This document shows, one piece after another, positions 23,245 through 40,769 of a DNA stretch of 44,458 bases (position 1 is the first letter of the stretch; every line of letters begins with the position of its first letter). The translations under genes were made by a program, and so were the position numbers. Source of the DNA: Hassallia byssoidea VB512170 (GTDB lineage: Bacteria > Cyanobacteriota > Cyanobacteriia > Cyanobacteriales > Nostocaceae); assembly GCF_000817785.2 (NCBI RefSeq), contig NZ_JTCM02000052.1:1-44458 (forward strand). Direction: 5' to 3'. Under the pieces are notes generated by a model. The model had not been told where the DNA came from. It saw nothing but the letters and a program-made list of their open reading frames with translations, and made no database searches.

Positions 23245-23273
23245 TGAAACAACTTAGCGAGTGACCGAACTTT

Positions 23274-25298: not shown

Positions 25299-25315
25299 AA
25301 GCTCATATAAAACTC

Positions 25316-25365
25316 GTAGTAAGCGCTTCAGCGCTTTAATCCTTAAGCGCTTTAGCGCTTACTAC
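25316..25365. repeat. GTAGTAAG-family double-hairpin repeat
   Basis: It starts GTAGTAAGCGCTTCAGCGCT and ends GCGCTTACTAC. Both arms fold on themselves (AGCGCT with AGCGCT). It lies between the two diiron genes and could form a structured spacer in a shared transcript. Confidence 0.8.
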
Positions 25366-25412
25366 ATTCTTTAATTATGAATTATGAATTAATAATTATT
25401 AATTAGATTAAC

Positions 25413-26606
25413 ATGAACACAACACTCAACGAACCCAAACAAAACACCCTTTTAGAAAATCCCCAAGTCTACCGCAAACTACAAATTAACCACACACGCA
25501 ACAAACAACAAGACCACACGCAACTGCTTGACGAAGCTGCTGCCGCATTTAAATATGAAGATTGCAAAGATGTCTATTGGAACCCAGAAGAATTCTCTTT
25601 ACTTTACGGTACACCTGTATGGTCACAAGCAAGCCCTCGTCAAAAAGTTATCTTAAATCAACTTTATTGGGTAGCTTATTATTCCCAAATTATCTCCGCC
25701 GAAATTGCCACAATCTTCTTTAATCAAACTAGCGCAGCCGGACTTTATGCTCAAGAAGATTTTCGTCTAGTTTGTGATATGCTTGACTTAGAATCAGCCC
25801 AAGAACGCGCTCATATAAACGCTTTTCAAACAGTTTCCCACCAAGTAGAAGCCGCATTATTTGGCAAGCGAATTTTCTCCTATACGATGCGCGGACCATT
25901 TGCGGAAACGATGATTTTCGCCGATACCAACACCTTCAAAAGATTCTGGAAAAAGCTGCAATTACAAACCTTTGGACTTTTATCATCAGATAATACCTTC
26001 TTGGCTTGCCAATACTTCACCGTGCGGGGTGTGCGAACACTCAACGGTAAGTTAGTACAGCATAAGTTAAGCAATTATTATCAGAAACATCCCGACCAAG
26101 AAAACGCTCCCATCCCTGCAAAGATATCTTACTATCACTTCATGGATGAAAGCTTTCATTTTAACAGTTCGACAATTATATCCCATGATGTGATTTCGTG
26201 TTTGAAACCGCCGACAGCATTTGAGAAGTTAGTCGCTAACTTGGGTTTGCGTGGTTGTCAAAAAGACCATTATCATTTTAGTGCGGTTATAAACGGGATT
26301 TTTTGGTACGATCCGGCATTGTATGCAGCGATTTATCAAGTCTTGCGATCGCAATCTTTTAGCATGAGCGATATTGAAGCAAAAGAAATGATGCGTCTTA
26401 GCTTCACCCAAGAATCAGAAGGACTACATCGCAGCTATCAAACCCACACCGAAGCAATGGAATCTTATAAAGTTTACCTCGATAAACTCAACTACGTTTG
26501 GCAAAGTAATAAACAAATGTCCCTCATGGCATCAAATTCTATTCCTAAATATTTAGAAATGCAACAAAAGTCATTTTCCTCGTTTTTACACTCACAGAGA
26601 AAATGA
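25413..26606 (+). CDS. AurF-like (p-aminobenzoate N-oxygenase-like) diiron oxygenase
   Basis: The 397-residue protein has the helical diiron pattern of AurF-like proteins: Glu97 (IISAEIATIFF), ERAH (131-134) and DESFHFN with Glu246 and His249. His residues in KDHYHFSA may add a ligand. In known members the diiron site oxidises an amine to nitro or hydroxylates carbons. Its stop overlaps the start of the next Rieske gene in ATGA, so the two are translationally coupled and probably act in sequence. N-oxygenation of an amine is possible but not shown. Confidence 0.8.
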   Translation: MNTTLNEPKQNTLLENPQVYRKLQINHTRNKQQDHTQLLDEAAAAFKYEDCKDVYWNPEEFSLLYGTPVWSQASPRQKVILNQLYWVAYYSQIISAEIATIFFNQTSAAGLYAQEDFRLVCDMLDLESAQERAHINAFQTVSHQVEAALFGKRIFSYTMRGPFAETMIFADTNTFKRFWKKLQLQTFGLLSSDNTFLACQYFTVRGVRTLNGKLVQHKLSNYYQKHPDQENAPIPAKISYYHFMDESFHFNSSTIISHDVISCLKPPTAFEKLVANLGLRGCQKDHYHFSAVINGIFWYDPALYAAIYQVLRSQSFSMSDIEAKEMMRLSFTQESEGLHRSYQTHTEAMESYKVYLDKLNYVWQSNKQMSLMASNSIPKYLEMQQKSFSSFLHSQRK

Positions 26607-27697
26607 ATCAATTTCAAAATCAAAACACACAACCGATTGTGAAGATGAAAATCTTCAACAATTGGGATATTATCGCTAAAGGCTGGTATATTGCTTGTCC
26701 AAGCAAAGAAATACCAAAAGGTCAAGCAAAATCTTTAAATCTTTGTGGACAACAAATCGTTATTTTTCGCGGAGAAGATGGAAATATTCGCGCATTAGAT
26801 GCTTATTGCCCACATTTAGGAACTGATTTAGGAATTGGACGAGTTGATGGTAATTTCATTCGCTGTTTTTTTCATCATTGGGCATTTGATGGTGAGGGAA
26901 ACTGTCAAGACATTCCTTGTCAATCAACAATTCCCGATAAAGCGAAACTGCAATCTTATGCAACTGACGAAAAATATGATTTTATTTGGGTTTATCCAGA
27001 TAAAGAAGCACCAAATAAAGTAGTTGAATTTGATGAACTTAAAGATAAACCTCTCGTGACAATACATGACAAAGCTTTCGAGAGAAGCTGTCATCACCAC
27101 ATTTGCATGATGAATGGCATTGATGCTCAACATCTGCAAACCGTACATAAATTAAATATTAAAATGGATTTATCCTTACAACAAAATGAATCCGGTACAA
27201 TTGTTGATTTTACACTGAGCGGTGAATTTCCCCAAACGACAACAAGAGAGCGAATAGGGCAAAAAATTCTCGGCGAACATTATGAATATACGATGAGATA
27301 TGCAGATGGCTGTATCGGACTTTTAACTATTATGAAAAAAGTTCGTATTGTGCCACCATTACATATGATTTACGCTTACACCCCTCTAGAAACGGGTAGA
27401 ACGCGCATTCAACCTATTTATGTTGCAAAAGAAAGAAAAGGTATTTTCGGTTGGGTTATTACGCGAATGTTGCTTTTGCTAACTAAATTAGCTTACTATT
27501 TCTTGCGTGGTGAAGATGGCATGATTTATGACAATATTCGCTACAATCCTCAGGCAATTATTAATATAGATATGCCGTTAGTTAAATATATGCAGTATGT
27601 AAATCAACTTGAAGCGTCTGTATGGTCGAAAAATAAATTTTTATTAGCCAAAGAAGATTTATTTAACGAACCGCAGAGTACGCAGCGGAAAGTTTGA
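26603..27697 (+). CDS. Rieske non-heme iron oxygenase (KshA/Neverland-like), second copy
   Basis: The 364-residue protein is a paralogue of the 22159 gene, with Rieske ligands Cys69, His71, Cys88 and His91 (CPHLGTDL and CFFHHW) and the iron motif GIDAQHLQTVH. KGIFGWVITRMLLLLTKL and EDGMIYDNIRYNP align with the same C-terminal part of the first copy. Translation is coupled to the AurF-like gene by an ATGA overlap. The last ten residues (EPQSTQRKV and one before) are encoded by the edge of a MITE-like repeat, so the native C-terminus was probably replaced. Electrons may come from the ferredoxin encoded just downstream. Confidence 0.88.
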   Translation: MNQFQNQNTQPIVKMKIFNNWDIIAKGWYIACPSKEIPKGQAKSLNLCGQQIVIFRGEDGNIRALDAYCPHLGTDLGIGRVDGNFIRCFFHHWAFDGEGNCQDIPCQSTIPDKAKLQSYATDEKYDFIWVYPDKEAPNKVVEFDELKDKPLVTIHDKAFERSCHHHICMMNGIDAQHLQTVHKLNIKMDLSLQQNESGTIVDFTLSGEFPQTTTRERIGQKILGEHYEYTMRYADGCIGLLTIMKKVRIVPPLHMIYAYTPLETGRTRIQPIYVAKERKGIFGWVITRMLLLLTKLAYYFLRGEDGMIYDNIRYNPQAIINIDMPLVKYMQYVNQLEASVWSKNKFLLAKEDLFNEPQSTQRKV

Positions 27698-27779
27698 GCG
27701 GAGGTTTCCTCCGATCAAAGCTTTCCAAGAGAGAGTTCACAGAGGAATGAGGAAGAGAGAGAATTTTTGCGTAAGTCCT
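27663..27779. repeat. Partial GGACTTACGC-type repeat, interrupted by a hairpin
   Basis: The right end TGCGTAAGTCCT matches the family terminus and abuts the ferredoxin ATG; ACGAACCGCAGAG matches the interior of the copy at 38305 in the opposite direction. The outer left terminus is missing. Inside it a separate hairpin pairs AAAG(T)TTGA..CGGAGG with CCTCCG..CAAAGCTTT. It supplies the 3' end of the Rieske gene. Confidence 0.7.
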
Positions 27780-27780
27780 A

Positions 27781-28068
27781 ATGAATAAACATATTATTCG
27801 CTTTACCCAAAGCAATTATCAACCAATTAGTCTAGAAAAACATCAAAAACTTTCTGAATATCTGACGGTACAAAATTCTCCGGTGTTATTTGGCTGTCGG
27901 ACGGGAATTTGTGGAACTTGTCTGGTAGTTGTAGAAGGGGATATTCCACCACCCAGTGAGGAAGAAAAGGAAATTTTAGAGATATTTGCACCGGGAAATG
28001 AACAAGCAAGACTTGCTTGTCAGATAGATTTAACAAACGATATAGATATAAAAATTTATGCGGGGTAA
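27781..28068 (+). CDS. Plant-type 2Fe-2S ferredoxin
   Basis: The 95-residue protein has FGCRTGICGTC with Cys39, Cys44 and Cys47 and a distal Cys80 (ARLACQID), the CX4CX2C...C pattern of plant-type 2Fe-2S ferredoxins. It carries single electrons in the cytosol. Two bases after its stop a Rieske oxygenase gene starts, so it is likely the dedicated donor for the Rieske enzymes of this cluster. No reductase gene is nearby, so electrons may come from photosystem I ferredoxin:NADP reductase. That last point is inference. Its ATG directly follows a repeat terminus and has no clear ribosome site. Confidence 0.9.
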   Translation: MNKHIIRFTQSNYQPISLEKHQKLSEYLTVQNSPVLFGCRTGICGTCLVVVEGDIPPPSEEEKEILEIFAPGNEQARLACQIDLTNDIDIKIYAG

Positions 28069-28070
28069 AA

Positions 28071-29093
28071 GTGAGATTTGAGGATTTTTGGTATGTTGTT
28101 TGTGAGAGTAAGCAACTAAAATTGAAGACGATACTGCAACGCACAGTTTTAGATGAATGGCTGGTGGTGTTTCGTGGTGATGATGGGAAAGCTGTTGTAT
28201 TGCGCGATCGCTGTATGCACAGAAACAGCCGTCTGTCTCATGGTAAAATCTGTAAAGGCAATATTCAGTGTCCTTACCACGGTTGGGTTTACGACAAAAC
28301 CGGCAAAGTTGTAGCTGTACCTGCTGAAGGTGAAAATTTTCAAGTTACCGATGCTCGTCGCGTGTTATGTTATGACACACAAGAGCAAGATGGATATGTT
28401 TATGTGCGATTGACGCAAAAGCCAAGTCAAGAATTTGCGCCTTTCAAAATGCCTTGCTATAAACAACCAGGATGGGAAACAGTACGTGTCATCAACCGCT
28501 TTCGCAACAATGTCACCAACTGTGCGGAAAACTTCATCGACATTCCCCACACTGCATCAGTTCATCCGGGAGTCTTCCGCACACCTTGCGCTTCACAGCT
28601 AGAAATGACAGTCCAAAGACGCAACGGTTCAGTATTCGCATCCTACCGTAACGAAACAACAAATCTCGGTTGGTTTACACACTTCCTCAACTCTCAAGGT
28701 TACGAAATTCGTCATATCGACAGCTTTCACATGCCGAATATCACCAGCGTTGAGTATGATATGGGAACGCACAGAAAACTTTTCATCACCAGTCAGTCGA
28801 TTCCCGAAGCTGCGGATTCAACTTTAGTTTACACTGACGTAACTTTCAACTACGGCATTTGGAACAAGTTAGCACGACCTTTTGTCAAATGGACTGCTCA
28901 ATATATTATCCGTCAAGATGTCGCAGCTTTAAACATCCAGTGGCAAGTAATTGAAAAATACGGCAGCAATTTTGCCAACACTCCCGCTGATACAATCCAC
29001 ATCTTTGTCGAATCTATCCGCAACAAAATCGCTGAAGGAGAAGACCCTAGAAACTTACCAGAAAAATCTGTAGAAATCAAGTTTTGGGTGTGA
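28071..29093 (+). CDS. Rieske ring-hydroxylating-type oxygenase (third)
   Basis: The 340-residue protein from the GTG at 28071 starts RFEDFWYVVCESKQL, a usual N-terminus of these oxygenases; an upstream ATG at 28017 would lie inside the ferredoxin gene and is rejected. Rieske ligands are Cys48, His50, Cys67 and His70 (CMHRNSRL and CPYHGW). ENFIDIPHTASVHPG gives the mononuclear iron histidines. It belongs to a different Rieske branch from the other two (CPYHGW and HTASVH instead of CFFHxW and AQHxxTVH). It is coupled to the ferredoxin gene at 2 bases. Substrate unknown. Confidence 0.88.
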   Translation: MRFEDFWYVVCESKQLKLKTILQRTVLDEWLVVFRGDDGKAVVLRDRCMHRNSRLSHGKICKGNIQCPYHGWVYDKTGKVVAVPAEGENFQVTDARRVLCYDTQEQDGYVYVRLTQKPSQEFAPFKMPCYKQPGWETVRVINRFRNNVTNCAENFIDIPHTASVHPGVFRTPCASQLEMTVQRRNGSVFASYRNETTNLGWFTHFLNSQGYEIRHIDSFHMPNITSVEYDMGTHRKLFITSQSIPEAADSTLVYTDVTFNYGIWNKLARPFVKWTAQYIIRQDVAALNIQWQVIEKYGSNFANTPADTIHIFVESIRNKIAEGEDPRNLPEKSVEIKFWV

Positions 29094-29104
29094 ACTACAT
29101 TCAT

Positions 29105-29198
29105 TAAGACTTACGCAAAAACTCTCTCAAACTCTTATTCCTCTGTTACCTCTGTGTCCTCTGCGGTTCGTTATTCGATTATTCGTCCGTAAGTCCTA
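29105..29198. repeat. GGACTTACGC-ended MITE-like repeat, about 92 bp
   Basis: It starts AAGACTTACGCAAAA and ends CCGTAAGTCCT; the inside has CTCTGTTACCTCTGTGTCC and GCGGTTCGTT. It aligns over its whole length with the copy at 38305-38396. It is downstream of the third Rieske gene. Confidence 0.8.
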
Positions 29199-29312
29199 TT
29201 CATAAAAAGAAGTGGCAAAATAAAGCCACTTCGTAATTCCCAGGTAGAACCTGAGAAATATTATAAATAAAATTCCACTTGCAAATGGTGTAAAGAGACA
29301 CTGTTTTTTGAA

Positions 29313-30065
29313 ATGTTAGTTTTTTTTGCCTTCGTGATTTTGCTGACGCTGACTGTGGCTAATGACAACAAACTTACTTTATTTCGCTTAAAAAAGCGTG
29401 AAGACTGGTTTGTAGATGGAATTAATCTATTTTTTCAGGGAATTTTGATTCCCATACTGCAAATAACTGTTATATATCAACTTTATCAGCATTTGCTTCC
29501 CAATTTTCAATCTTCTCTAAATCTGCACCCCATCGTTGCATTTTGCTTCAGCTTCGTGTTTGTAGATTATCTATATTACTGGAATCATCGCTTATTTCAT
29601 ACCCGTTGGCTGTGGTATGTCCATCAAGTGCATCACACAGTTACACAAATGGATGTTTTAGGAACTTCTCGCAATACTTTGTGGACAAGCTTTCTAATTA
29701 TTTACTTGTGGGTTCACGCTTTATTTATCTACCTGCTGCAAGATTCAAGTTGGTATGTTGCAGGTGTCAGCTTGAGTTCGGCTTTAGATTTGTGGAGACA
29801 TAGTGTTTTTACACCCAAACCAACATCTTTATTTTACCGCTGTTTGTCACCTTGGCTCATTCTACCCCAGAATCATGCTTGGCATCACGCCAGCAGCGGT
29901 ACTGTTGGTAATTATGGAGCAAATTTCAAGCTTTGGGATAAAATACACGGGACTTATTTTGAATGCGATAAAGCACCAGATTCTTTAGGTGTGGAGACGA
30001 AGTTAAGCTTAACCCAAAAGCTATTTTTACCCTTTAATTATTCTCAGGGCGATTTGTCGTTGTAG
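29313..30065 (+). CDS. Fatty acid hydroxylase/sterol desaturase-family membrane protein (second)
   Basis: The 250-residue membrane protein has the histidine boxes HRLFH (92-96), HQVHH (104-108), WRHS (161-164) and HAWHH (188-192) of the diiron fatty acid hydroxylase superfamily, and helices at about 1-16, 40-60, 75-90 and 115-145. It should oxidise a lipid-like substrate at the membrane. It follows the third Rieske gene after a MITE-like repeat. Its 3' end overlaps the minus-strand pentapeptide gene by 32 bases, marking the border between the two clusters. Substrate unknown. Confidence 0.87.
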   Translation: MLVFFAFVILLTLTVANDNKLTLFRLKKREDWFVDGINLFFQGILIPILQITVIYQLYQHLLPNFQSSLNLHPIVAFCFSFVFVDYLYYWNHRLFHTRWLWYVHQVHHTVTQMDVLGTSRNTLWTSFLIIYLWVHALFIYLLQDSSWYVAGVSLSSALDLWRHSVFTPKPTSLFYRCLSPWLILPQNHAWHHASSGTVGNYGANFKLWDKIHGTYFECDKAPDSLGVETKLSLTQKLFLPFNYSQGDLSL

Positions 30066-32946
30066 AATACAAACTTATCAAAACCTTAGCTAATTCACCT
30101 GGTTTAAATATTCTACCGTTTAACTCTGGTTTGCGACCGGGATCGGGGTTGTTCTTAGTGGGTATTTGCGTGTAGATATAATCACACTCTACTCCGACTA
30201 ATTTTGTTTCTGGTGTCAGTTCACATTTATAAATATAAGCACCTGTGAGTTGAGCGATCGCTAAATTTGTTTTTCTCAATTTAGTATGCAACAATTTTGC
30301 GCGTGAGAGGTTAGCACCTTGCAAGTCTGCTTCACTCAAATCTGTATTTATAAAACTAGCATCAACAAGGTTTGCTCCTCGTAAATTAATTCCCCGCAAA
30401 TCTAAATTATCAAACTTCTGATTTTGTCCATTATTAGTAACCAACAATTGTTGTACTAAAGGATACTGTAAATAACTGTCACCGCAAGCACGGTTAAGTC
30501 GTTTTGCCCCAAACCAGCGCGTACCGTTAATTTTGGCTTGTCTAAAGTTGGCAGCTTTCAGCGTGGCTTGGGTAAATTCCACATTCGTCAAGTCAGATTT
30601 AGCAAAATTAGTACCACCTGCGGAGGCAAAGGCAAGAGCACAATTGCGAACTGAGGTAAATTTAACATTGCCGGATATAGCCTGCAAACCAATATAAGCG
30701 CTAAGTTGGATAGTTGCTAAAGAGGTAACAATTGAGGAGGCAATTGGCAGATTTGAAGCACCAGAAGTGGCTAGAAAACCCACTATCAGTAGCATTGATG
30801 TAATGACAACGCTAACAGACCAAAATAAGGCGATTATTTGATTGCCTGATTCTGCCCAAGTTAGGGCGATACTAACAGCTATAATTACTGCTGTAGCCCA
30901 AGTTACAGCTAAAGCCGTAATTAAGAATGCAGCGATATATATGAAATAAGGCAAGGAATCTGTCGAAAAGTTGTTAATAAACCCTAAAGTAAACAACAAA
31001 GCAAATAAAACTGGTATAGAGATAATTGTAGCGATCGCACTACGCAGGTTAGCTACCCCTGCCAACATCAAAAATATCGCCATAATCAAAGCTATGAGCA
31101 GAGTAGATATTAGTAACGAAGTTAGCTGGTTGGTTGAACTAGAAAGCCCAATCCAGCTAAAACCTAAAGCTATAGCGACAATAATTCCCACAAAAACGAC
31201 AAGCGTGACAGACATCTTTACCAAAGTTATTTCTGGAAGAGCGGCTTCAAATGCTAAAGCTAAAGCTAAATAAAGAGCAATTGCAATGAAAGCTAGAAAA
31301 ATAGTGATATGGCTTTTACCTGCTACCAAAGCGATCGCGAAAATTATCGCTGTTAAAACTAAATGAAATCTTATCCATCTAAATTTACCCCAAAAATGCA
31401 ACCTTATATTAGTTTCTAACTGATTTTTCCTGCTATTTTCATAGAAACGGGTAAAGGCAAAACCTAAACCGAGTGCGATCGCGACAACTAATAAAGATAC
31501 CTCAATTGGCATCGACTGTAGCGAATTCTTGGATGATGAACTGACGCTTGCAAGCATCAACGTCGGCAAAGCAATTCCCATCAAAGCCAGCGCTACAGCA
31601 ACCCAAGCTGTATTTACACCCTTGCGAACAGTCCAAAAGCAGTTAAAGGTAAACACAATTACTATAATTATCAAAACAATTGCCCAAGCGATCGCATTGT
31701 CACTTTCATCGGGCAATCGCAGGGTTTTAATCGGAAAGTTGAAAAGCAAACCGATTAACAATGCTGCCGGAGCTAACAACAGCGTTATCATTAAACTTGT
31801 CTGTAAGCATAATCGCCAACCTTTGCGAATATTAGCAATGCTACTTACCGCAAATATTAATAAACTCACGACGCTTGTAGAAATGAAAGTATTATTATAA
31901 TTCCTGTAATTTTCTCGTATTAGTGAATTTAACGATTCTCCCCACCCAGCACCAAGCAGCGATACAGTAGCGCTAGATAAAAACAACAACAAAAAGCAGC
32001 AAAACATCAAACCAAATGCCCCACGAGGTTGTAACCCAGTTTTTGCATAGCTAAAATTTGCCCCGACTAACTTGGCATTTACAAAGTTTGCTCCGCGTAA
32101 ATCTGCATAGCTGAAGTTTGCTTGAGTTAAATCTCGATTTTTGAAAGACTTTCCCCGCAAATTTTGACCGCTGAAATCCTGCTTTGGTGGTAAACTAGGC
32201 TTTCCCAGATTTTCTTTGAGGCTTTCGGGAATGGGAAATTCCTGTCCAGCAATTTCGATTGTCCCTGACTCAGAAATTTTACTAAGTTGCTCAATAGCTT
32301 CTTGCAAATCACCACGAGAAAAGCTTGCCATTCCACGAGCGTAAAGCAATAAAGGTTCTAATTTTGCTTCTTCTAAGGTTTCTGCAAAGCTTTCTATTAA
32401 AGAAGATAAGCGCAGGATTTCTGTGTTTTGCGTCGAATCGACTTCTAAAACATCTAATTGAAGTTTATTAAAGGCTTGTGCAATTTGCTCGACTGCCTTT
32501 CCCGGTTTGGCGTAAGCTAAAGCTGTCCACTGTTGAGCTTCGGCAAAGTCCCGCACATCAATATCATTGCTGTGGAGTTGGCGATCGACATATTCCACTA
32601 AAAAGTCAGATAGTTGCAAAATTCGGTCTTGGTGAAAGTCGTCGTCACAAAACTTTTTGTCAGCTTTTAAACGACGCAACAGTTCATTTCGCACTGCGCT
32701 ATCGATTTCGTAAAGTTCGTGTCCTACTTCTTGGCACAAACTAGAAAGTAACAAATCTGCTACCGATTCCCAAGGAATGTTGAGCAATTCACCGTGAATA
32801 TCTTGTTGAAAATTAGCCCACAAACTATATAATAGTTGCGGAGTCAGAGCCAGTGGAAAAGCTGCATGATAAGCCAAGTAGAGATGAGGCTTGCCAAAGC
32901 GTTTTTCAAACGAATCTATTCGGCGGATGGCAACTGTAGGTTTCAT
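30034..32946 (-). CDS. Polytopic pentapeptide-repeat protein of a MoxR-vWA system (VMAP-like partner)
   Basis: The 970-residue protein has four parts. Residues 1-240 form a helical soluble domain (SFEKRFGKPHLYLAYHAAFP, LLLSSLCQEVGHELYEIDSA), which I have seen in cyanobacterial partner proteins of MoxR/vWA loci. Pentapeptide repeats follow (257-301, A(D/N)L/FxxA), then about 12-14 TM helices (311-750) and a second pentapeptide block (about 765-910) with the common cyanobacterial C-terminus CDYIYTQ..NGRIFKPGE. The start overlaps the vWA gene stop by 4 bases, so it is translationally coupled. I infer the membrane-bound effector or target module of the system. The TM block in the middle of a solenoid is unusual. 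Confidence 0.8.
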   Translation of the reverse strand: MKPTVAIRRIDSFEKRFGKPHLYLAYHAAFPLALTPQLLYSLWANFQQDIHGELLNIPWESVADLLLSSLCQEVGHELYEIDSAVRNELLRRLKADKKFCDDDFHQDRILQLSDFLVEYVDRQLHSNDIDVRDFAEAQQWTALAYAKPGKAVEQIAQAFNKLQLDVLEVDSTQNTEILRLSSLIESFAETLEEAKLEPLLLYARGMASFSRGDLQEAIEQLSKISESGTIEIAGQEFPIPESLKENLGKPSLPPKQDFSGQNLRGKSFKNRDLTQANFSYADLRGANFVNAKLVGANFSYAKTGLQPRGAFGLMFCCFLLLFLSSATVSLLGAGWGESLNSLIRENYRNYNNTFISTSVVSLLIFAVSSIANIRKGWRLCLQTSLMITLLLAPAALLIGLLFNFPIKTLRLPDESDNAIAWAIVLIIIVIVFTFNCFWTVRKGVNTAWVAVALALMGIALPTLMLASVSSSSKNSLQSMPIEVSLLVVAIALGLGFAFTRFYENSRKNQLETNIRLHFWGKFRWIRFHLVLTAIIFAIALVAGKSHITIFLAFIAIALYLALALAFEAALPEITLVKMSVTLVVFVGIIVAIALGFSWIGLSSSTNQLTSLLISTLLIALIMAIFLMLAGVANLRSAIATIISIPVLFALLFTLGFINNFSTDSLPYFIYIAAFLITALAVTWATAVIIAVSIALTWAESGNQIIALFWSVSVVITSMLLIVGFLATSGASNLPIASSIVTSLATIQLSAYIGLQAISGNVKFTSVRNCALAFASAGGTNFAKSDLTNVEFTQATLKAANFRQAKINGTRWFGAKRLNRACGDSYLQYPLVQQLLVTNNGQNQKFDNLDLRGINLRGANLVDASFINTDLSEADLQGANLSRAKLLHTKLRKTNLAIAQLTGAYIYKCELTPETKLVGVECDYIYTQIPTKNNPDPGRKPELNGRIFKPGELAKVLISLYSTTTNRPENN

Positions 32947-35591
32947 TGGCGGTAGGGTGTAAACTGACCTCTTAAATGGGCGATCGCTCCCTGCAATCCC
33001 TGACGGCTAAACTCAAACATCGGTACTAAAAGAGCGATTTTACCAGCCGATGTGCCAGCCCAACGAGATTGAGGCATCGGATTTAACCATGCAACATAGC
33101 GCACTTTCTGCTTAAGTTGCTGCAAAAATTGCTCAGTTAACTTGATGCGTTCTGCATTCAAACCACCACGAGCTGCACCTGCATCACTAAAAATCATCAC
33201 ACCTGCGAAGAGTGAGTAACTCGCAAGGATATCGTTTAATAATTCAGCTTCGCAAAGGCTAGGGTCGTGGTAAATATATTTATCAGCACAGTTGTGAAAA
33301 TAATAAACATCTGCTTTAGCTAAACGTCCACCCTGGACTGCTGTTTCTCCCAAGCGGCAAGATAACGTGTGGAATGGTACCATCGAACCATCTCGATCAA
33401 TTAACAGCAGCAACTCAGCTTGATTGACTCGTCTGGGCATTAAACTAGGTTTGAGGAATACACCCTGACGGGCAAACTCGCTCACAGTCGCTTCTATGTC
33501 AAGTTCCGTGGCTGGACCTTCCCTAACAAACCGTCGCAAATAACGCCAACTTTGCTTCATTTGCCGACGAGTTACGGGGAAGTATTCAGCTAACTCAATG
33601 CCAACTGCTTGCCGCACTGCTTGCACAACTTGCACCACATCTTCAGGCGATCGCTTCTTTTCAAAAGTCGATGCAGCAGGTGTAGAATCAGCTTTAGACT
33701 CATCATTTGCTTGCTTTTGGCGCGATTTGGCATTACGTTCTTGTAAGTACCTCATAATCGCGTATTGCATCAAGCACAAACACAAAGCGATTAATGCAAC
33801 AATAGTAAGGAATTGCCCCCATTTCTCATTGGGATTGAAAGAAGGTTTTTCAAAAACGTCAATATCTAATGAGCGAGTGTCTTTTATGCCACTTGCATCA
33901 CTGAGTTCTAGCTTTACTTTCTGATAGTAAGGCTCTGAAGTGATAATCAAGCGCTTGCTATCGCGACTAAAGCTAAGACTATTGTTTCTTCCGGTAAAAG
34001 GTATTTTTCGTAACTCGTTAACCGACAGATCCCACAGACGAAGGTAGCCATCATCCGCATATGTGGCAATCCAGCGTTGATCTGAGCTCAAAGCGACACT
34101 TCTAACTTTTCCTCGATGTCTCAATCCTCGCCATTGCTTCCCAGATGGATCTTGGAAAGGTTGCCACAAACGTGAAATGCGATCGCTCTCTGAAGCTGTG
34201 ACAATACGCTGTCCATCTAAACTAAAGTTGATAAAATCAACATTTGGTTGTTTTAGTTCTGCCAGCTTTTTGCCCGACAAAATATCCAGCACAATCACCT
34301 TATCTTGTGTTGTAAGAGCGATCTGCTGTCCATTCGGACTTAATTCTACGTAACGACTGGGGAAATAATCTTTGAATTGCTTTTGCGAAAAGTTAGATTC
34401 TCCCAACTTCTTACCAGACATATCCCACAAACGGACAGAGAATTCTCCGAGCGAGTTTTCTGAGGAATCTTTCCACAATATCGTCATCAACCACTGTCCA
34501 TTAGCACTAAAAGCAGCAAGATTGGGACTATTTTCACCGAGATCGGCAATCTTTTTACCTGAGATATCCCAGAGAAAAATCCTCTCATTGTCAGTTGAAT
34601 AATCCCCGGAAGCGGTGACTATGCGTTGACTATCGGGACTAAAGATAATTTTATAAATCGGTTTCTGATGCTTTAATTGCCCTACCTGTTTACCGGAAAC
34701 ATCCCATATCCGAACCAAGCCATCACCCGATGCAGTGGCTAAACGCTTACCGTCAGGGCTAAAACTTATATCATTGATTTTACCTTGATGCTGTAAGTCT
34801 TTTCCTATTTGCTGATGCGATGAATTCCACAAGCGAACAATATTTTTGTCTTCTGTGGTGGCGAAATACGATCCATCAGGGGTAAAGATTAGTTGGAACT
34901 CACTATCATCTTTATCGTTAGTCTGCCACCAATATTCAAATTCCCCTATTTGTTTACCAGAAAGATCCAACACACTAACGCTTTTATTAGTGTATTTTTC
35001 AGCTTTGCCAACTAACCTGTATTTTCCATTTTCACCTTCTTCTAACTTTAGCCAAGGTGGTATCTTTACAGCAGTAATCTTCAGTTTATCGTTTTCCTTT
35101 GCTTTACAAAATGAAACCTCTTTCTTGTAATCTTCGCCCTGTATGGCTTGTTTACTCGGTGTATCCAGGAAATAAGGACATTTTCTCGGTTGGGGTCTGA
35201 CTAACCAAATGGATACTCCCGCAACTAGCAACAAAGTACTCCCCCAAACTAGCTTACGAGTGAGAGAAAGCCTTGGTAAGTTAAAGCCTCGTTTCTTTTT
35301 TTCCGGCTCTAATTTTGGCAGAATGGGAGCATCATCTAATAAAGTAGACAATTCCGCTTCTTCAGCCATCACTTGCTCAAAGTGATAGTTAAACAGCAGC
35401 CTTTCTTCGTCTGACTTAACCCACAAAGTACGGCATAATCTAGCTAAAGCCTCCTGGTCTTTGATACCAAAACCAGACTGAAGAGCGTTTAGCGCCAGTT
35501 TATACTCATCAATGCCTAATGGTAAACCTGCTTTTCGCAGTCGGTCAAAAAGTTTCAGTAGTGGTAGTTGCAAGTTAAAGTCTTTGCTCAT
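32943..35591 (-). CDS. Membrane-spanning WD40-vWA (CoxE/SAV_2336-like) protein
   Basis: The 882-residue protein starts with a helical domain (LPLLKLFDRLRKAGLPLGID, 10-28; DEERLLFNYHFEQV) typical of CoxE/SAV_2336-like proteins. TM1 (about 114-131) is followed by an Ig-like segment (IPPWLKLEEGENGKYRLVGKA), about seven WD40-type blades (FSPDGKRLATASGDGLVRIW) at about 225-585, TM2 (about 589-608) and a C-terminal vWA domain. The vWA metal site reads DRDGSM (732-737), with Asp where DxSxS has Ser, and IFSDAGAARGG follows. Positive charges flank the TMs so that the propeller would be outside and both ends cytosolic. An upstream start at 35771 would be made only of repeats and is rejected. MoxR AAA+ partners act on vWA proteins. 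Confidence 0.85.
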   Translation of the reverse strand: MSKDFNLQLPLLKLFDRLRKAGLPLGIDEYKLALNALQSGFGIKDQEALARLCRTLWVKSDEERLLFNYHFEQVMAEEAELSTLLDDAPILPKLEPEKKKRGFNLPRLSLTRKLVWGSTLLLVAGVSIWLVRPQPRKCPYFLDTPSKQAIQGEDYKKEVSFCKAKENDKLKITAVKIPPWLKLEEGENGKYRLVGKAEKYTNKSVSVLDLSGKQIGEFEYWWQTNDKDDSEFQLIFTPDGSYFATTEDKNIVRLWNSSHQQIGKDLQHQGKINDISFSPDGKRLATASGDGLVRIWDVSGKQVGQLKHQKPIYKIIFSPDSQRIVTASGDYSTDNERIFLWDISGKKIADLGENSPNLAAFSANGQWLMTILWKDSSENSLGEFSVRLWDMSGKKLGESNFSQKQFKDYFPSRYVELSPNGQQIALTTQDKVIVLDILSGKKLAELKQPNVDFINFSLDGQRIVTASESDRISRLWQPFQDPSGKQWRGLRHRGKVRSVALSSDQRWIATYADDGYLRLWDLSVNELRKIPFTGRNNSLSFSRDSKRLIITSEPYYQKVKLELSDASGIKDTRSLDIDVFEKPSFNPNEKWGQFLTIVALIALCLCLMQYAIMRYLQERNAKSRQKQANDESKADSTPAASTFEKKRSPEDVVQVVQAVRQAVGIELAEYFPVTRRQMKQSWRYLRRFVREGPATELDIEATVSEFARQGVFLKPSLMPRRVNQAELLLLIDRDGSMVPFHTLSCRLGETAVQGGRLAKADVYYFHNCADKYIYHDPSLCEAELLNDILASYSLFAGVMIFSDAGAARGGLNAERIKLTEQFLQQLKQKVRYVAWLNPMPQSRWAGTSAGKIALLVPMFEFSRQGLQGAIAHLRGQFTPYRQ

Positions 35592-35616
35592 AGTAATTAG
35601 TGCTAAACAGTCATCC

Positions 35617-35647
35617 GATTTTGGATTTTGGATTTTGGATTTTGGAT
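35617..35647. repeat. 7-bp tandem repeat (GATTTTG)
   Basis: About 4.5 copies of GATTTTG. Similar runs are common between cyanobacterial genes. It lies 26 bases before the vWA gene start and would encode KSKIQNPKS if translated. Confidence 0.8.
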
Positions 35648-35701
35648 TGATCCCACGGATAAACCGTTCGGTTGTACCATCAAGTTCCAAGAAATTTAAA
35701 T

Positions 35702-35778
35702 GTAGGGTGCGTTGCGCTGCGCGACAACGCACCTTGAATTCTTGATGGTGCGTTAGCCTATGGCATAACACACCCTAC
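35702..35778. repeat. TGCGTTA inverted-repeat element
   Basis: Ends GTAGGGTGCGTT and AACACACCCTAC pair with one mismatch; GGTGCGTTA is inside. It is a relative of the copy at 15422. Confidence 0.75.
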
Positions 35779-35886
35779 CAACTAACGAACCGCGAAGACA
35801 CGAAGGACACGAAGGAAGAAGAAAAAGAAGATAGGTAATTTTGTAGCGGGAAGGGAGTAAACAGTCAACAGTCAAGCTTCAAGCGA

Positions 35887-36117
35887 GAAACTTCGAGTTC
35901 GGAACCTGAAACTTCGAGTTCGGAACCTGAAACTTCGTGTTCTGAACCTGAAACTTCGAGTTCTGAACCTGAAACTTCGAGTTCCGAACCTGAAACTTCG
36001 AGTTCTGAACCTGAAACTTCGAGTTCTGAACCTGAAACTTCGAGTTCCGAACCTGAAACTTCGTGTTCGGAACCTGAAACTTCGAGTTCGGAACCTGAAA
36101 CTTCGTGTTCCGAACCT
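35887..36117. repeat. 21-bp minisatellite, 11 full copies
   Basis: The unit begins GAAACTTCGAGTTC and ends with a variable base, then GAACCT. Copies start every 21 bases from 35887; a partial copy follows at 36118. Variable positions are the GAG/GTG in the middle and the C/T/G after GTTC or GTTCT. All frames are open through it: minus-strand frames read VSGSELE or KFQVQNS. It has no start site context and lies between operon genes. Confidence 0.88.
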
Positions 36118-36168
36118 GAAACTTCAACACACCACGCTTCCCCCACACCACGCTTCCCCCACTCCCCA

Positions 36169-37119
36169 TCACCCCCGCTTCTTCAGATATGCTAAATAGC
36201 GCTGATGATCTGCCCAGTTTTTGAGTAACACACCCAAAAACGGCAGCTTTCCGTCGAGTTGCTGCAAAATTTTATCCTCAGGATGCTCTTTTAGCACTTT
36301 TATCCAATCGATCAATTCGCTGGTGCTAACATTTTTACCAGCTTCACCTCTGCTGTCAGCGATCGCTTTTCGCAGTTCCTGAAAACGCTGTATAGCTTTT
36401 TGAGAAAGTTCTGGGGAGATATCTGGAAAAATGTTGCGGATAATTTGTTCGAGTCGTTTATCGTCAGGAAATTCTAGATAATGAAATAAGCAGCGACGCA
36501 AAAAGGCATCTGGCAAATCCTTTTCATCATTGCTGGTGATAAAAATTATTGGGGCTGCTTTTGCCTCAATCTTTTGATCTGTTTCTTCGACAATAAAGCA
36601 TTTTTCGTCAAGTTCCAGTAACAAATCGTTGGGAAAGTCAATATCAGCTTTATCAATTTCGTCAATTAGCACAACGCAGGGTTTATCGTGTTGAAATGCG
36701 CGTCCCAACGGACCCCAACGGATATAAGAAGTTGGATCGTCAAGGCGTCGGCGTTGTTCTGGTGTCAGGCGATCGCTTGCCGCTAATTGAGCATCCCGCA
36801 ACCTTCCGACTGCATCGTATGTATACAAACCATCCCTGGCTCTACTAGTAGATTTTACGTACCAAGCCTCCAATTTAGGCAAACCAAATTTTCGACTAAA
36901 TTCATAAGCAACTGCTTTTGCCAGCAGAGTTTTACCGCATCCGGGTTCACCTTTTAACAGCAATGGTCGCCCCAAATAAATCGCCAAATTCACTGCTTCT
37001 ATCAGTTCAGGACTAGGTAAATAAGGAGATAAAAGTTGTTTATTCTCTCCTCGTTCTCCCGGTTGAGGGTGAACATTGCCTTCATATTTCAACGTTTGTC
37101 TATTTAGTACTTCAACCAT
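36169..37119 (-). CDS. MoxR-family AAA+ ATPase
   Basis: The 316-residue protein has the Walker A loop GEPGCGKT (57-64), Walker B VVLIDEIDKA, sensor-1 IFITSNDEKD and the LRRC arginine-finger region. MoxR proteins act as cytosolic AAA+ chaperones that remodel or activate vWA-domain partners. The next gene in the operon encodes such a vWA protein. The start overlaps the end of the STAND-like gene by 16 bases, so translation is coupled. The usual C-terminal lid is present. Function inside this particular system is inferred from neighbours. Confidence 0.9.
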   Translation of the reverse strand: MVEVLNRQTLKYEGNVHPQPGERGENKQLLSPYLPSPELIEAVNLAIYLGRPLLLKGEPGCGKTLLAKAVAYEFSRKFGLPKLEAWYVKSTSRARDGLYTYDAVGRLRDAQLAASDRLTPEQRRRLDDPTSYIRWGPLGRAFQHDKPCVVLIDEIDKADIDFPNDLLLELDEKCFIVEETDQKIEAKAAPIIFITSNDEKDLPDAFLRRCLFHYLEFPDDKRLEQIIRNIFPDISPELSQKAIQRFQELRKAIADSRGEAGKNVSTSELIDWIKVLKEHPEDKILQQLDGKLPFLGVLLKNWADHQRYLAYLKKRG

Positions 37120-38096
37120 GTTTTCTCTTCTTCATACCAATCGCAACAACCTGATAAGTAACATATTTGTTCCATTGCTAATTCAGGAACGCCATTATCA
37201 CTATTTTCTAAAATTGTTTGTACTGTTTGCTCTAATTGCTCTGTTAGTAAGATAGGCAAATCATCCGATTCATAGTCTAACCATTTCGCCAGTTCTTCTT
37301 GAGAAAATCCGCTAATTTCAGGCAGCTTAACAGGGCTATCTGGTTGCCAGTTTGAATTAGGTTCTTCTGGTGCAAACGGAACATTCCATTTGCTTACACA
37401 ACCCTTCTCGTCAATCAAGAACATTATTAGCTGGAATTGACTAACTTTGGCGTTAGCACTTGTAGTTTTAATGGTTAATGGGAACCAGAAATTTTCAAGC
37501 AACTCGCGCAAGTAAATTTCTGATAAAAAATCCACATCGCGGAAAATTAGCAGCACATTCTGAGTTTGCCACCATTGGTAAACGCGATCGGCAATATCCG
37601 GGGGTAAACCTTGCCCACCTAAACCAACTCCTCGACTAAGTTCGCGCCATAAAGAAGGCACATCGCTTTTACGCGCAAGCCGATTGAGGTTAAATTGCAC
37701 GACTTTTGCTGTAATGCTATTAGGAACGTGCTGTTGCACCAAGCGATTCAACAGCCAACCTTGTCCATAATCGGGTAAGCCATGAATCAAAAAAGCTGCG
37801 ACTGAATTATCAGGAATAATCCGACGAAATTTTTTTGTCTGCTCTCGATAGTTCAATTTCAGCAGCGCTCGATATAACCGTTCAACAGGTGATGCTCTCT
37901 CAAGCCGATCAATCTGTTGAGCTAGTTCATCCATTTCTGCTTCAGTTTGTTCAATTTGCTTTTCCAACTGAAAGCGAGCGATCGTACTTGCTTCAATCGC
38001 ATAACTGCGTCGCAAATCTTTCAGCTTCTCAGCCTCTAAGTCATACTGTTGTTGTAATGCATCAAGTTTATGCTGTAAGTGCTGATCTGAGAACAT
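37104..38096 (-). CDS. Coiled-coil plus degenerate STAND-like NTPase protein
   Basis: The 330-residue protein from the ATG at 38096 has an N-terminal coiled coil (residues 3-68, HLQHKLDALQQQYDLEAEKL), resembling effector-associated adaptor domains. The rest resembles an inactive STAND (iSTAND) NTPase: FLIHGLPDYGQGW (about 103-115) lies where the P-loop should be but lacks the GK(S/T), and NVLLIFRDVDFLSE resembles Walker B. It likely recruits partners without hydrolysing NTP. A TTG at 38180 would add 28 residues; the ATG has an AAGGAAG ribosome site and fits the family start. It heads the operon iSTAND-MoxR-vWA-pentapeptide protein. Confidence 0.75.
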   Translation of the reverse strand: MFSDQHLQHKLDALQQQYDLEAEKLKDLRRSYAIEASTIARFQLEKQIEQTEAEMDELAQQIDRLERASPVERLYRALLKLNYREQTKKFRRIIPDNSVAAFLIHGLPDYGQGWLLNRLVQQHVPNSITAKVVQFNLNRLARKSDVPSLWRELSRGVGLGGQGLPPDIADRVYQWWQTQNVLLIFRDVDFLSEIYLRELLENFWFPLTIKTTSANAKVSQFQLIMFLIDEKGCVSKWNVPFAPEEPNSNWQPDSPVKLPEISGFSQEELAKWLDYESDDLPILLTEQLEQTVQTILENSDNGVPELAMEQICYLSGCCDWYEEEKTWLKY

Positions 38097-38540
38097 TGAC
38101 TTCCTTTTTGAGCTAATAATCTTTTCACTCATACGGCATTCCAGATTTTTGCGTTCTAGATTGCTCGCGTTTTGTGTCAATAGCTAAAACATCCCTCTAA
38201 AACTAGATTTCACTTATATAGTTTCTTCACTTCGCATCTTCTTAAATCCAGATGTATAGTATTTATGTCTCGCTTTCAAGTAGTTGTTATTGCCCATTTT
38301 TGATAGGACTTACGCAAAAATTCTCTCTTTTCCTCATTCCTCTGTGAACTCTGTGCCTCTGCGGTTCGTTTATTTCATTATTCTTGCGTAAGTCCTGTTT
38401 GATTCAAAACGCTCAAAATCTCGGTTCTTCAACAAAATCAAGATTGTGAAAAATTGCATCGAAAACAGATTTAGTATAAAAATTTAATCTAAATAAAACT
38501 GAATCAAGGTCAACGATATTATTGTTGTCTTATAAATGAC
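38097..38540. other. Gene-free divergent region between two operons
   Basis: The region separates the minus-strand MoxR-vWA operon from the plus-strand acyltransferase gene. It holds a MITE-like repeat at 38305-38396 and AT-rich sequence on both sides that should carry the promoters. No gene is seen. Confidence 0.6.
38305..38396. repeat. GGACTTACGC-ended MITE-like repeat, 92 bp
   Basis: Ends AGGACTTACGCAA and TTGCGTAAGTCCT are perfect inverted repeats. It aligns with the copy at 29105-29198. Confidence 0.85.
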
Positions 38541-39152
38541 ATGACATTTCTCAGTACTATTCTCTCTTTGTTTCCTACTTTAGTGATGCTGATGACAGCA
38601 GCATCAATCCTTTGGATTTGCTTTTATCCAGGGATATTAAGTATTATGGCGCTTTTGATTTCTTTATACATCTTTCCCTTATTGATATATAGAATACACG
38701 AATATTTTTATCCTTTAAAAGAAGGAATCAGTTATTTAGCTGGTAAAAATTATTCGCCTTGGTGGGGAAGTCATCAAATCCAAGTAATATATATTGCCTT
38801 TCCCGCGTTAGAAACACTGTTGCGGCTTATCCCTGGTGCATTCTCATTGTGGTTGCGGTTGTGGGGCGCAAAAGTGGGTAAAAATGTTTATTGGACACCG
38901 CAGTTAGAAATAAGCGATCGCGCTTTAATCGAAATCGGCGATAATGTCGTATTCGGTAATGGCATCGGCATTTATTCTCACATCATCAAACCGAAAAAAC
39001 AAGACTTACTGCTATATGTTAAAAAAGTGAAAATCGGTAACAATGTCTTTTTAGGAGCTTGGAATCACATCGCACCAGGAGTTACAATTTTAGATGGAAC
39101 TTATGTTCCTGTTTTCACTCATGTTTATCCAAACAAAAAATTTAGTCAATAG
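38541..39152 (+). CDS. Hexapeptide-repeat (left-handed beta-helix) acyltransferase
   Basis: The 203-residue protein has two N-terminal hydrophobic helices (about 8-50) and a C-terminal left-handed beta-helix with hexapeptide repeats (GAKVGKNVYW, IGDNVVFGNG, VKIGNNVFLG, IAPGVTILDG). Such proteins transfer acetyl or other acyl groups. HIIKPKKQD holds a likely catalytic His in the loop. It is 84 bases upstream of the GH3-type gene and probably in the same transcript. It may acylate the product of the nearby oxidative cluster, but the MoxR-vWA operon lies between. Acceptor unknown. Confidence 0.8.
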   Translation: MTFLSTILSLFPTLVMLMTAASILWICFYPGILSIMALLISLYIFPLLIYRIHEYFYPLKEGISYLAGKNYSPWWGSHQIQVIYIAFPALETLLRLIPGAFSLWLRLWGAKVGKNVYWTPQLEISDRALIEIGDNVVFGNGIGIYSHIIKPKKQDLLLYVKKVKIGNNVFLGAWNHIAPGVTILDGTYVPVFTHVYPNKKFSQ

Positions 39153-39175
39153 TGAAAATTTAGAAACTTAATTTT

Positions 39176-39231
39176 GTAGTAAGGGCTTCAGCCCTGAAAA
39201 TTTAAATTATGAGGGCTGAAGCCCTCACTAC
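39176..39231. repeat. GTAGTAAG-family double-hairpin repeat before the GH3-type gene
   Basis: It starts GTAGTAAGGGCTTCAGCCCT and ends AGCCCTCACTAC, five bases before the ATG of the GH3-type gene. Each arm folds AGGGC on GCCCT. Confidence 0.85.
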
Positions 39232-39236
39232 GTTAA

Positions 39237-40769
39237 ATGCGCTTTATTATTAAACTATTCGCAAAGCTTCTCACACCTGCTGCTAGTCGGTTCCATCATG
39301 CACTGAAAAATCCCCAAGCATCGCAGCAAACAGTACAAAAAGCGATTATCAAACGTCTTATTCAAAGTGAATATGGTAAATCTTTAAATATCAAATCTAT
39401 TACCGATTGGCATCACATCCCCATAGTTGCATACCACGATATTGAAAAGTTAATTTTGCAACAAAAGGAAACTAAAAAGCCTTTACTAACATCTGAATCA
39501 ATCCTTTTTTATGAAAAAACTTCCGGAAGTCGCGGTGCTGCAAAGTTAATTCCTTACACCAAATCTTTGCTGAGTTCTTTTAATCAAATGTTCTGCGTTT
39601 GGGCGCATGATTTAATTGTGCATGGGGCAAATTTTTCAACAGGTAAAATATACTTTTGCATTTCGCCACAGTTGGGAGGAAAACAAGATGAAATCGGATT
39701 GAACAATGATTCAGAATATTTAGATAAATGGTTAAGATGGTTTCTCAGTCCTTTTTTGATTTCACCTCGCGGATTAAATCGCGTTGGTGATGCGGAAGAA
39801 TTTAAAAATAAACTTTCTCACACACTTTTACTCGAAGAAAAGTTGGAAATTATCTCTATTTGGAGTCCGAGTTTTCTCAAAGTTATCCTCGATTATATTC
39901 AAAGTAATCGTACACGACTTTTGTTAGAAATAGGCGATCGCCTTTCACCTCAACGTCACCAACTGCTTCTCAATACAGAGATTCCCTGGACGCAACTTTG
40001 GCGAGAACTTAAACTTATCTCTTGTTGGGATAGCGCTAACGCTGCGGATGGTGCGGAATTTTTGCGTTTATTGTTTCCCAACGTTTTAGTACAGGGTAAA
40101 GGACTCCTTGCCACCGAAGCACCGCTAACTATCCCCTTAATTTCAGCGCAAGGATGCGTACCAATGCTGAATGAGGTGTTTTTTGAGTTTGAAGATGAAG
40201 CGGGGAAAATTTACCGTTTGCATGAATTGGAAAAAGACGGCATTTATGAGATAATTATTTCTCAGAAATCAGGATTGTATCGTTATCGAATAGGCGATCG
40301 CCTGAGCGTTACCCATTTCTATTTAAATACACCTTGTTTGCAATTTCTCGGACGCACACAAGAAATCAGCGATTTAGTAGGCGAGAAACTAAATTCTCAA
40401 TTTGTGCGTCAAGTTCTCGATTCCTTACCCTTACAAAAAACATCCTTTAAAAGTTTAGTACCCGTCAAGCAACCACAACATTACGTTTTGTTACTCGACC
40501 AAACGAATGTAAATCCCCAAGAACTCGCTCAACAATTAGATAATGCCTTGCAACAATCTCCTCAATATCGCCATGCAAGGCTTCTAAATCAACTTCAACC
40601 CGTGCGAGTATTGGTATCTTCACGCATCCCGGAAATTATCGCTTTATATAAAACGCGATCGGGCAAAAAATGGGGCGACTTTAAACACGATATTCTCTCA
40701 ACTACACCCATCGAACCAGAACTACTCGCGGAAATTGAATTGATTCGTAGTAAGCACTTCAGTGCTTAA
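39237..40769 (+). CDS. GH3-family (auxin-responsive-type) acyl-adenylating enzyme
   Basis: The 510-residue protein has the GH3 N-terminal ATP loop YEKTSGSRGAAKLIPYT and SGLYRYRIGDRL with FLGRTQEISDLVGEKL, the conserved adenylate and hinge motifs of GH3 proteins. In plants such enzymes adenylate acids and join them to amino acids; bacterial members activate carboxylic acids, and several occur in natural-product loci. It should adenylate an acid here. The last residues (RSKHFSA) and the stop come from a GTAGTAAG repeat, so the native end may be lost. Linkage to the oxidative cluster is inference. Confidence 0.85.
   Translation: MRFIIKLFAKLLTPAASRFHHALKNPQASQQTVQKAIIKRLIQSEYGKSLNIKSITDWHHIPIVAYHDIEKLILQQKETKKPLLTSESILFYEKTSGSRGAAKLIPYTKSLLSSFNQMFCVWAHDLIVHGANFSTGKIYFCISPQLGGKQDEIGLNNDSEYLDKWLRWFLSPFLISPRGLNRVGDAEEFKNKLSHTLLLEEKLEIISIWSPSFLKVILDYIQSNRTRLLLEIGDRLSPQRHQLLLNTEIPWTQLWRELKLISCWDSANAADGAEFLRLLFPNVLVQGKGLLATEAPLTIPLISAQGCVPMLNEVFFEFEDEAGKIYRLHELEKDGIYEIIISQKSGLYRYRIGDRLSVTHFYLNTPCLQFLGRTQEISDLVGEKLNSQFVRQVLDSLPLQKTSFKSLVPVKQPQHYVLLLDQTNVNPQELAQQLDNALQQSPQYRHARLLNQLQPVRVLVSSRIPEIIALYKTRSGKKWGDFKHDILSTTPIEPELLAEIELIRSKHFSA

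Follow-up and report, generated by a model that had tools for sequence, protein, structure and literature searches.

The stretch of DNA considered here (the window) comprises the 44,458 nucleotides of contig NZ_JTCM02000052.1 of the cyanobacterium Hassallia byssoidea VB512170 and carries, on its minus strand, four open reading frames (ORFs) encoding, in order, an adaptor with a degenerate STAND domain, a MoxR AAA+ ATPase, a protein that combines a WD40 propeller with a vWA domain, and a polytopic pentapeptide-repeat protein (table 1). The first two genes overlap by 16 bp (37104-37119), the last two by 4 bp (32943-32946), and a repeat-filled gap separates the MoxR and vWA genes. This layout, the nature of the four products and their membership of the NTP-dependent conflict systems had been put forward in an original prediction made from the DNA alone, and are borne out by ORF reading, Pfam matches (AAA_5 and AAA for MoxR) and hydropathy. 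On balance, the locus would seem to be a membrane-anchored MoxR-vWA ternary conflict system of the iSTAND type with a split vWA-L gene.

Table 1. Features of the putative conflict-system locus, in window positions (aa, amino acids; TM, transmembrane; Ig, immunoglobulin; K/R, lysine and arginine residues flanking a TM helix; MIDAS, metal ion-dependent adhesion site).
Feature	Position	Strand	Basis or remark
iSTAND adaptor	37104-38096	minus	330 aa; alternative upstream TTG start at 38180 possible
EAD9-like helical N-terminus, aa 8-64	37905-38075	minus	EAD9 PF19962 weak
iSTAND domain, aa 78-228	37413-37865	minus	PF19995
MoxR AAA+ ATPase	36169-37119	minus	316 aa
MoxR-vWA gap	35592-36168	none	577 bp, repeat-bearing
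21-bp tandem array inside the gap	35887-36125		11.4 copies, Tandem Repeats Finder (TRF)
Heptamer repeat inside the gap	35617-35648		repeat search
vWA protein, predicted membrane-spanning	32943-35591	minus	882 aa
vWN, conserved N-terminal domain, aa 8-80	35352-35570	minus	predicted cytoplasmic
TM helix 1, aa 109-134	35190-35267	minus	hydropathy; K/R 5 on N side, 3 on loop side
Ig-like (He_PIG-like) domain, N-terminal part	34956-35177	minus	predicted extracytoplasmic
WD40 propeller inserted in Ig-like domain	33957-34916	minus	WD40 E 3.1e-30; alignment A2
Ig-like domain, C-terminal strands past propeller	33867-33947	minus	alignment A2
TM helix 2, aa 592-618	33738-33818	minus	hydropathy; K/R 2 on loop side, 5 on C side
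CoxE-type vWA domain	32964-33587	minus	VWA_CoxE (PF05762) E 1.8e-8; MIDAS-like DRDGS, second Asp in FSDAG
vWA-L + pentapeptide/polytopic protein	30034-32946	minus	970 aa
vWA-L linker domain, aa 1-240	32227-32946	minus	fusion to vWN-vWA elsewhere
N-terminal pentapeptide block	32032-32181	minus	Pfam and sequence reading
Polytopic region, 12 predicted TM segments	30661-32031	minus	hydropathy
C-terminal pentapeptide block	30202-30639	minus	Pentapeptide E 2.7e-26 (whole protein)
Segment absent from congener G356	30034-38534	none	blastn

Four classes of MoxR-vWA ternary systems were defined by Kaur et al. in 2020 (PMC7159879). With the iSTAND class the window locus shares the MoxR ATPase, a CoxE-type vWA protein and an inactive STAND third component with an adaptor-like tail, as well as a variable module, TM segments (found in a subset of these systems) and a cyanobacterial host (PMC7159879). 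The third component strongly matches iSTAND proper (PF19995 E 6.7e-30, 105 bits against a cut-off of 24; iSTAND2 and TERNS3 lay outside the profile set used) and its STAND domain is scored as inactive, the pattern GxxxxGK[ST] being found by regular expression in 0 of 81 iSTAND proteins. By the same means MoxR retains its Walker A and B motifs (present in 85 and 86, respectively, of 86 MoxR proteins of the surveyed loci), with the P-loop GEPGCGKT, and its sequence, read by eye, shows none of the N-terminal aromatic motifs or extensions of the VMAP type; an active-motif AAA+ protein without such extensions is what iSTAND systems have. They also have a variable module joined through vWA-L, either on the vWA protein or on a separate gene, as seen here from the fusions and the module census given below.

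The VMAP type named in the original prediction, with which the locus has MoxR, vWA, a third component and variable modules in common, had to be abandoned in favour of the iSTAND subtype. Pfam includes VMAP models; when all matches with E up to 1 are considered, the iSTAND, MoxR and pentapeptide proteins show no VMAP family, nor is there one among the best 25 of 53 Pfam matches of the vWA protein. The beta-propeller subtype was rejected as well: bpMoxR systems likewise have a propeller in the vWA protein, but it is placed C-terminal to the vWA domain and the P-loop is often GXXXTAKS (PMC7159879), whereas in the window the propeller is N-terminal, between TM helices, the P-loop is GEPGCGKT and the bpMoxR match stays at 17.3 bits against a cut-off of 27 (Pfam). 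A similarity to MadB (NCBIfam E 2.2e-26) was set aside at 92.8 bits against a cut-off of 475, a literature search on it having given no relevant result among the papers listed.

Relatives were sought with vWA-L in 292 genomes of the phylum (25 matched), with the iSTAND family in a draw of 292 genomes (26 matched at E 0.001, 24 above the cut-off, and 0 of 14 control genomes) and with the N-terminal domain of the vWA protein (vWN) in 217 genomes of the family (at least 103 matched). The set of loci (L numbers; genomes bear G numbers, contigs C numbers) consists of the window and 92 others chosen by vWA-L or vWN matches and is biased to near relatives, so that its counts speak for linkage within this group of loci and not for prevalence. 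A multicellular habit is expected of hosts of iSTAND systems; most of the 29 named relatives are filamentous cyanobacteria. MoxR, vWN, vWA and vWA-L are found together in 89 of the 93 loci; 80 of these 89 also contain iSTAND and have all components on one strand, eight are without a long iSTAND match and one (L032) has a component on the opposite strand. The genes do, indeed, stay together, as the original prediction supposed. VWA_CoxE matches the vWA part of the vWA protein; the conserved vWN domain, present in the 89 loci, may correspond to the CoxE-like four-helical N-terminal domain of iSTAND-type vWA proteins, and L072 has vWN with no vWA match.

In 12 of the 89 loci the domain that opens the pentapeptide protein (~240 aa) is part of the ORF for vWN and vWA, and in 77 it has an ORF of its own; by position and fusion, it is taken as the published vWA-L linker. 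Thus, the fourth gene is a variable partner, as originally supposed, in its module but not in its N-terminal part. A separate vWA-L gene, such as carries the module in the window, is described as the minority situation among iSTAND systems (PMC8195603), and the bias of the sample towards near relatives means that the 77 of 89 do not contradict this. The modules carried by vWA-L, called with 13 seeds in the 89 loci, are FGS (36 loci), pentapeptide-TM (8), CHASE2 (6), GUN4 (5), AAA_35 (3), KAP/STAND (2), caspase C14 (2) and six singletons, with 21 loci matching no seed; Pfam scans of ten further modules gave GH25, PG_binding_1, WD40, Sigma70_r4 and DUF1257 once each and no match in five. CHASE2, a known extracytoplasmic sensory domain, thus occupies the so-called effector slot in L069, L071, L073, L083, L101 and L102 (Pfam-scanned in L069), which hints that the slot may sense rather than act.

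Hydropathy places no TM segment between vWN and vWA in 49 of the 89 vWA proteins and at least one in 40. In the window, two TM helices bound an Ig-like domain, within which, according to alignment A2, the WD40 propeller sits, the final Ig strands resuming downstream of it. The propeller is present in the loops of the window, L048 and L049, and the Ig-like domain alone in those of L019 and L050-L053; the He_PIG match is weak in L019 (E 6.9e-4, under cut-off), and the loop of L018 matches Calx-beta slightly under cut-off (Pfam). Three features suggest, indirectly, an extracytoplasmic position of the Ig/propeller loop: across the 34 vWA proteins with at least two TM segments, flanking lysine and arginine residues number 186 on the outer sides and 102 on the loop sides; the two cysteines of the window loop, Cys138 at the edge of the Ig-like domain and Cys162, are both conserved in L048 and L049; and further relatives of the Ig-like domain mostly fall in very long ORFs of 2000-8200 aa, which are taken as surface proteins (a few weaker matches lie in ORFs of 740-880 aa). 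As a separate observation, the MIDAS-like pattern D-x-[DS]-[GA]-S is present in 42 of 86 vWA domains, chiefly of the membrane type, and absent from 44, mostly soluble; either the soluble type may no longer bind peptides in a metal-dependent way, or the pattern is too strict.

The predicted membrane loop goes together with the module of the fourth gene. The eight paired loci were first chosen by their pentapeptide-TM module, and the Ig and polytopic profiles were built from them; all eight vWA proteins contain the Ig-like domain, and neither profile has a match in the other 85 of the 93 loci. Among the family genomes the Ig profile finds these eight and a ninth vWA-like locus in G320 (E 1.2e-26). 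In this locus, L119 on contig C258, iSTAND is present, the Ig-like domain and vWA are on different ORFs and the vWA-L protein matches the polytopic profile more weakly (E 4e-9), but neither MoxR nor vWN gives a match, so that the locus is apparently broken. The polytopic profile gives eight strong loci in the 217 family genomes (E <= 1.6e-45), the next other locus among the matches listed standing at 1.5e-16. More generally, a TM-bearing module on vWA-L is accompanied by a TM-bearing vWA protein in 27 of 28 loci (hydropathy), the exception, L031, being an FGS protein with a predicted TM segment overlapping the end of the FGS domain; 13 loci have a TM-bearing vWA protein with a soluble module and 48 have TM segments in neither. 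The association is strong by Fisher's test when relatedness is left uncounted (p 5.6e-12); descent explains much of it.

Weaker matches to the polytopic profile are widespread: some match is found in at least 148 of the 217 genomes, the eight full ones included, mostly in ORFs of ~450-720 aa, so that the module may have been taken from a resident family. Of seven partial-match relatives read, six have the layout pentapeptide-TM-pentapeptide with no room for vWA-L, and the seventh is interrupted by masked sequence. The six share the layout of the window protein and have a similar tail, but the frames of these cyanobacterial proteins open directly with pentapeptide repeats. A TRADD-N identity suspected by eye in long pentapeptide-TM relatives was discarded, as Pfam gave pentapeptide-type families alone in the four scanned.

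The chromosomal site itself is variable. In the congener G356 the flanks meet across ~0.25 kb, compared with ~8.5 kb in the window (blastn), i.e. the site is empty; in the congener G357 it is occupied by L088/L151, an iSTAND system that has a short TM hairpin besides its FGS module. As for the flanks, the genes for the fatty-acid hydroxylase and the GH3-family protein occur in both congeners and in G409, of another genus, where they are adjacent and the genome's own system is on a different contig; they were found neither in G355 nor in G358, a genome 54% complete. Furthermore, the locus has relatives that differ from gene to gene. Identity of iSTAND to the window is 78% for L088 and 58% for L048, a locus of a distant genome; that of MoxR is 74 and 78%, respectively. 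For vWN, vWA and vWA-L, L088 reaches 65, 68 and 60%, compared with 86, 82 and 80% for L048. Within MoxR, DNA identity to L088 drops from 87 to 47% at codon-aligned position ~630 (window ~36465), while that to L048 stays at ~80% throughout. The same drop is seen against L098 and L105, and before it the window is not clearly nearer to L088 than to others, so that the break need not lie exactly inside MoxR.

Trees of 38 chosen loci (LG+G4 without mixture; topology tests chosen after the identities had been seen) give the same picture. In the iSTAND tree, the window and L088 are joined with support 100/100 and grouping of the window with L048 is rejected (approximately unbiased (AU) test, p 1.7e-4); in the vWN-vWA-vWA-L tree it is the window and L048 that are joined with 100/100, and the window with L088 that is rejected (p 4.9e-55). 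The N-terminal part of MoxR places the window without starred support, and the C-terminal part with L048 (SH-like approximate likelihood ratio test (SH-aLRT) 98). The iSTAND tree also rejects the eight paired loci as one clade (p 4.7e-83, five label changes), and the N-terminal part of MoxR requires five label changes. By these comparisons the locus in the window is a recombinant, with iSTAND from a congener-like allele (L088), vWA and vWA-L from one like that of the distant genome (L048), and the break at MoxR; the latter would lie somewhere between the iSTAND gene and ~36465. The vWA/vWA-L pair is read here as moving as a unit between backbones, the window being one such product. That the Ig slot and the polytopic module were gained in two steps had been considered when a four-module core tree (MoxR, vWA, vWA-L and vWN) split the eight loci into three groups (AU p 0.042); the tree without MoxR keeps them on one side of a branch, which indicates that the split came with MoxR, and the two-step gain was dropped in favour of exchange of the pair between backbones.

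That such a recombinant is a decaying hybrid, left non-functional by recombination at MoxR and by the repeat-filled 577-bp gap, seems highly improbable. In its favour, the repeats stand between MoxR and vWA at a place where L048 and L088 have no gap, their vWA frame reaching MoxR when read from stop to stop, and the related L119 looks broken. Four open frames, Walker A/B-like and MIDAS-like motifs and core domains conserved with respect to L048 speak against decay. A longer GTG-start vWA ORF of the window, to 35771, runs into repeat DNA; gaps between MoxR and vWA are present also in some other loci (e.g. L033, L063 and L070).

Conservation between the window and L048 is uneven: vWN reaches 84%, vWA 81%, vWA-L 78% and the pentapeptide blocks 78 and 73%, but the Ig-like domain only 49%, WD40 46%, the polytopic region 44% and TM helix 2 26%. 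This divergence fits fast evolution of outward parts or merely weaker constraint. In the explanation preferred here, the receptor reading of the membrane-anchored iSTAND system, the Ig/propeller loop would sense a cue on the envelope side (such as phage infection, attack by a lytic predator or damage to the wall), and its binding would alter the vWA/vWN pair inside the cell. MoxR would set a threshold by remodelling the vWA-vWA-L complex with ATP, the system being off by default, and the polytopic pentapeptide protein tethered by vWA-L would be altered next, most simply opening or destabilizing the membrane and stopping or killing the cell. The need for sensor and output to match would explain why the vWA and vWA-L proteins move jointly. 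A bolder and less probable extension is a transmembrane immune receptor in which the extracytoplasmic Ig/propeller sensor and the polytopic effector form a matched, exchangeable two-gene cassette that recombines at MoxR into different iSTAND-EAD backbones, so that a single event at one chromosomal site would change both specificity and output.

The direction of signalling could also be the classical one of Kaur et al. in 2020 and 2021 (PMC7159879, PMC8195603), with iSTAND as the sensor, perhaps of intracellular nucleic acid, and the Ig/WD40 loop and pentapeptide module as scaffold or effector parts merely placing the complex at the membrane. This order is considered less probable: variation of iSTAND does not follow that of the vWA/vWA-L pair, which could be expected of a separate input, but the Ig-like domain and the propeller diverge far beyond vWN, vWA and vWA-L, as a ligand-facing part would (a weaker constraint being equally able to produce this), and sensory or wall-binding domains, CHASE2 and PG_binding_1, occupy the so-called effector slot. 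Proposals differ on which part of the ternary systems senses and which acts, Kaur et al. favouring the third component and a study of systems linked to diversity-generating retroelements (DGR) the variable domain on vWA (PMC10907252). With a variable part predicted to face outwards and an exchange caught between congeners, the sensor question becomes directly testable.

In the receptor reading, the EAD9-like tail of the iSTAND adaptor would recruit like-tailed partners in trans, and candidates exist. The genome holds copies of the tail with 47-61% identity in a paralogous iSTAND protein on contig C167, in a CHAT protein beside it (CHAT E 5e-7) and in a TIR protein on contig C23 (TIR_2 E 2.2e-17; Pfam). 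By the EAD principle, in which like tails recruit partners (PMC8195603), the TIR and CHAT proteins may join the window system and could be co-effectors. In Nostoc punctiforme, the expression of CHAT, MoxR and vWA genes and of DGR targets has been described as correlated (PMC12691664). The vWA protein of the paralogous system (L005) has no TM segment. A third, more distant MoxR-like gene of the same genome, L006 (G000:C48), lies near caspase-like and FGS-like ORFs, the domains having been assigned by eye.

Several observations weigh against the receptor reading. Activity of iSTAND systems against invaders is a published prediction; to our knowledge, no experiment has demonstrated defence by any of them, that of the window included, and PADLOC gives weak partial matches only. 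The topology of the vWA protein is predicted from hydropathy and charge, and the charge pattern is broken in single proteins (e.g. L051, L060 and L098). Counting descent, the association of TM segments in vWA protein and module comes down to three and eight independent pairs, for which the sign test is not significant. The C-terminal part of MoxR fails to unite the eight paired loci (four label changes), and the branch that holds them in the vWN-vWA-vWA-L tree has weak support (78/62). As for the tail, the EAD9 match of the adaptor (PF19962 E 0.0091) is below the cut-off (16.2 bits against 25), and EAD9 is not among the Pfam matches of the tailed TIR and CHAT proteins at E 0.001. Finally, the polytopic pentapeptide family is common outside conflict systems, an occurrence as compatible with a housekeeping role as with toxicity. 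The last point also favours a non-defence chaperone, in which MoxR and vWA would load a polytopic pentapeptide client in ordinary envelope physiology, as NorQ-NorD or RavA-ViaA, the characterized MoxR-vWA pairs being chaperones (PMC9976466, PMC3893208). This explanation is considered unlikely in view of the empty site and the different allele in one genus, the many unrelated modules on one core and the like-tailed TIR and CHAT proteins.

TM segments occur in ~28% of iSTAND systems, from which a membrane-proximal subset was inferred (PMC7159879), so that the original statement that no membrane-spanning version had been described fails as worded. The general membrane-proximal form is published; a narrower novelty is left, in that the open-licence literature searched (the supplementary tables of Kaur et al., possibly listing such loci, were outside it) gave neither an iSTAND vWA protein whose Ig/propeller slot is paired with a polytopic pentapeptide protein nor exchange of the pair as a cassette. 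The features that appear to be new, and by which the window differs from described iSTAND systems, are the predicted extracytoplasmic Ig-like domain with inserted WD40 propeller between two TM helices, N-terminal to the vWA domain and following vWN, and the polytopic pentapeptide module, the two co-occurring in 8 of 93 loci and occurring singly in none of the 85 others; to these may be added the site that is empty in one congener and bears an FGS-type system in another, with a recombinant locus in the window. DGR-linked ternary systems are alike in having a variable domain on vWA, proposed as the sensor, but vary by retroelements (PMC10907252), whereas the window system apparently varies by exchange of a two-gene cassette (no DGR search was made). 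If the receptor reading is true, predicted bacterial immunity would gain a class of receptors that face the envelope, as well as an economical means of changing specificity, through the exchange of cassettes at an ATPase gene that the systems share.

The surroundings of the system deserve a brief mention. Its flanks (22159-30065 and 38541-40769) resemble a small biosynthetic gene cluster encoding Rieske oxygenases, a 2Fe-2S ferredoxin, a weak AurF-like protein, a fatty-acid hydroxylase, a hexapeptide-type transferase and a GH3-family ligase (22159-23244 and 23274-24119 assigned by eye), and the conflict system lies in the middle of this region, antisense to it. Further away, short tandem repeats (GAGACAAG, TCCCCAC) are found at 20146-20242, inside the ORF of a P-type metal ATPase (18240-20603, by eye), and another 21-bp tandem array, of 14.7 copies, extends over 20809-21117.

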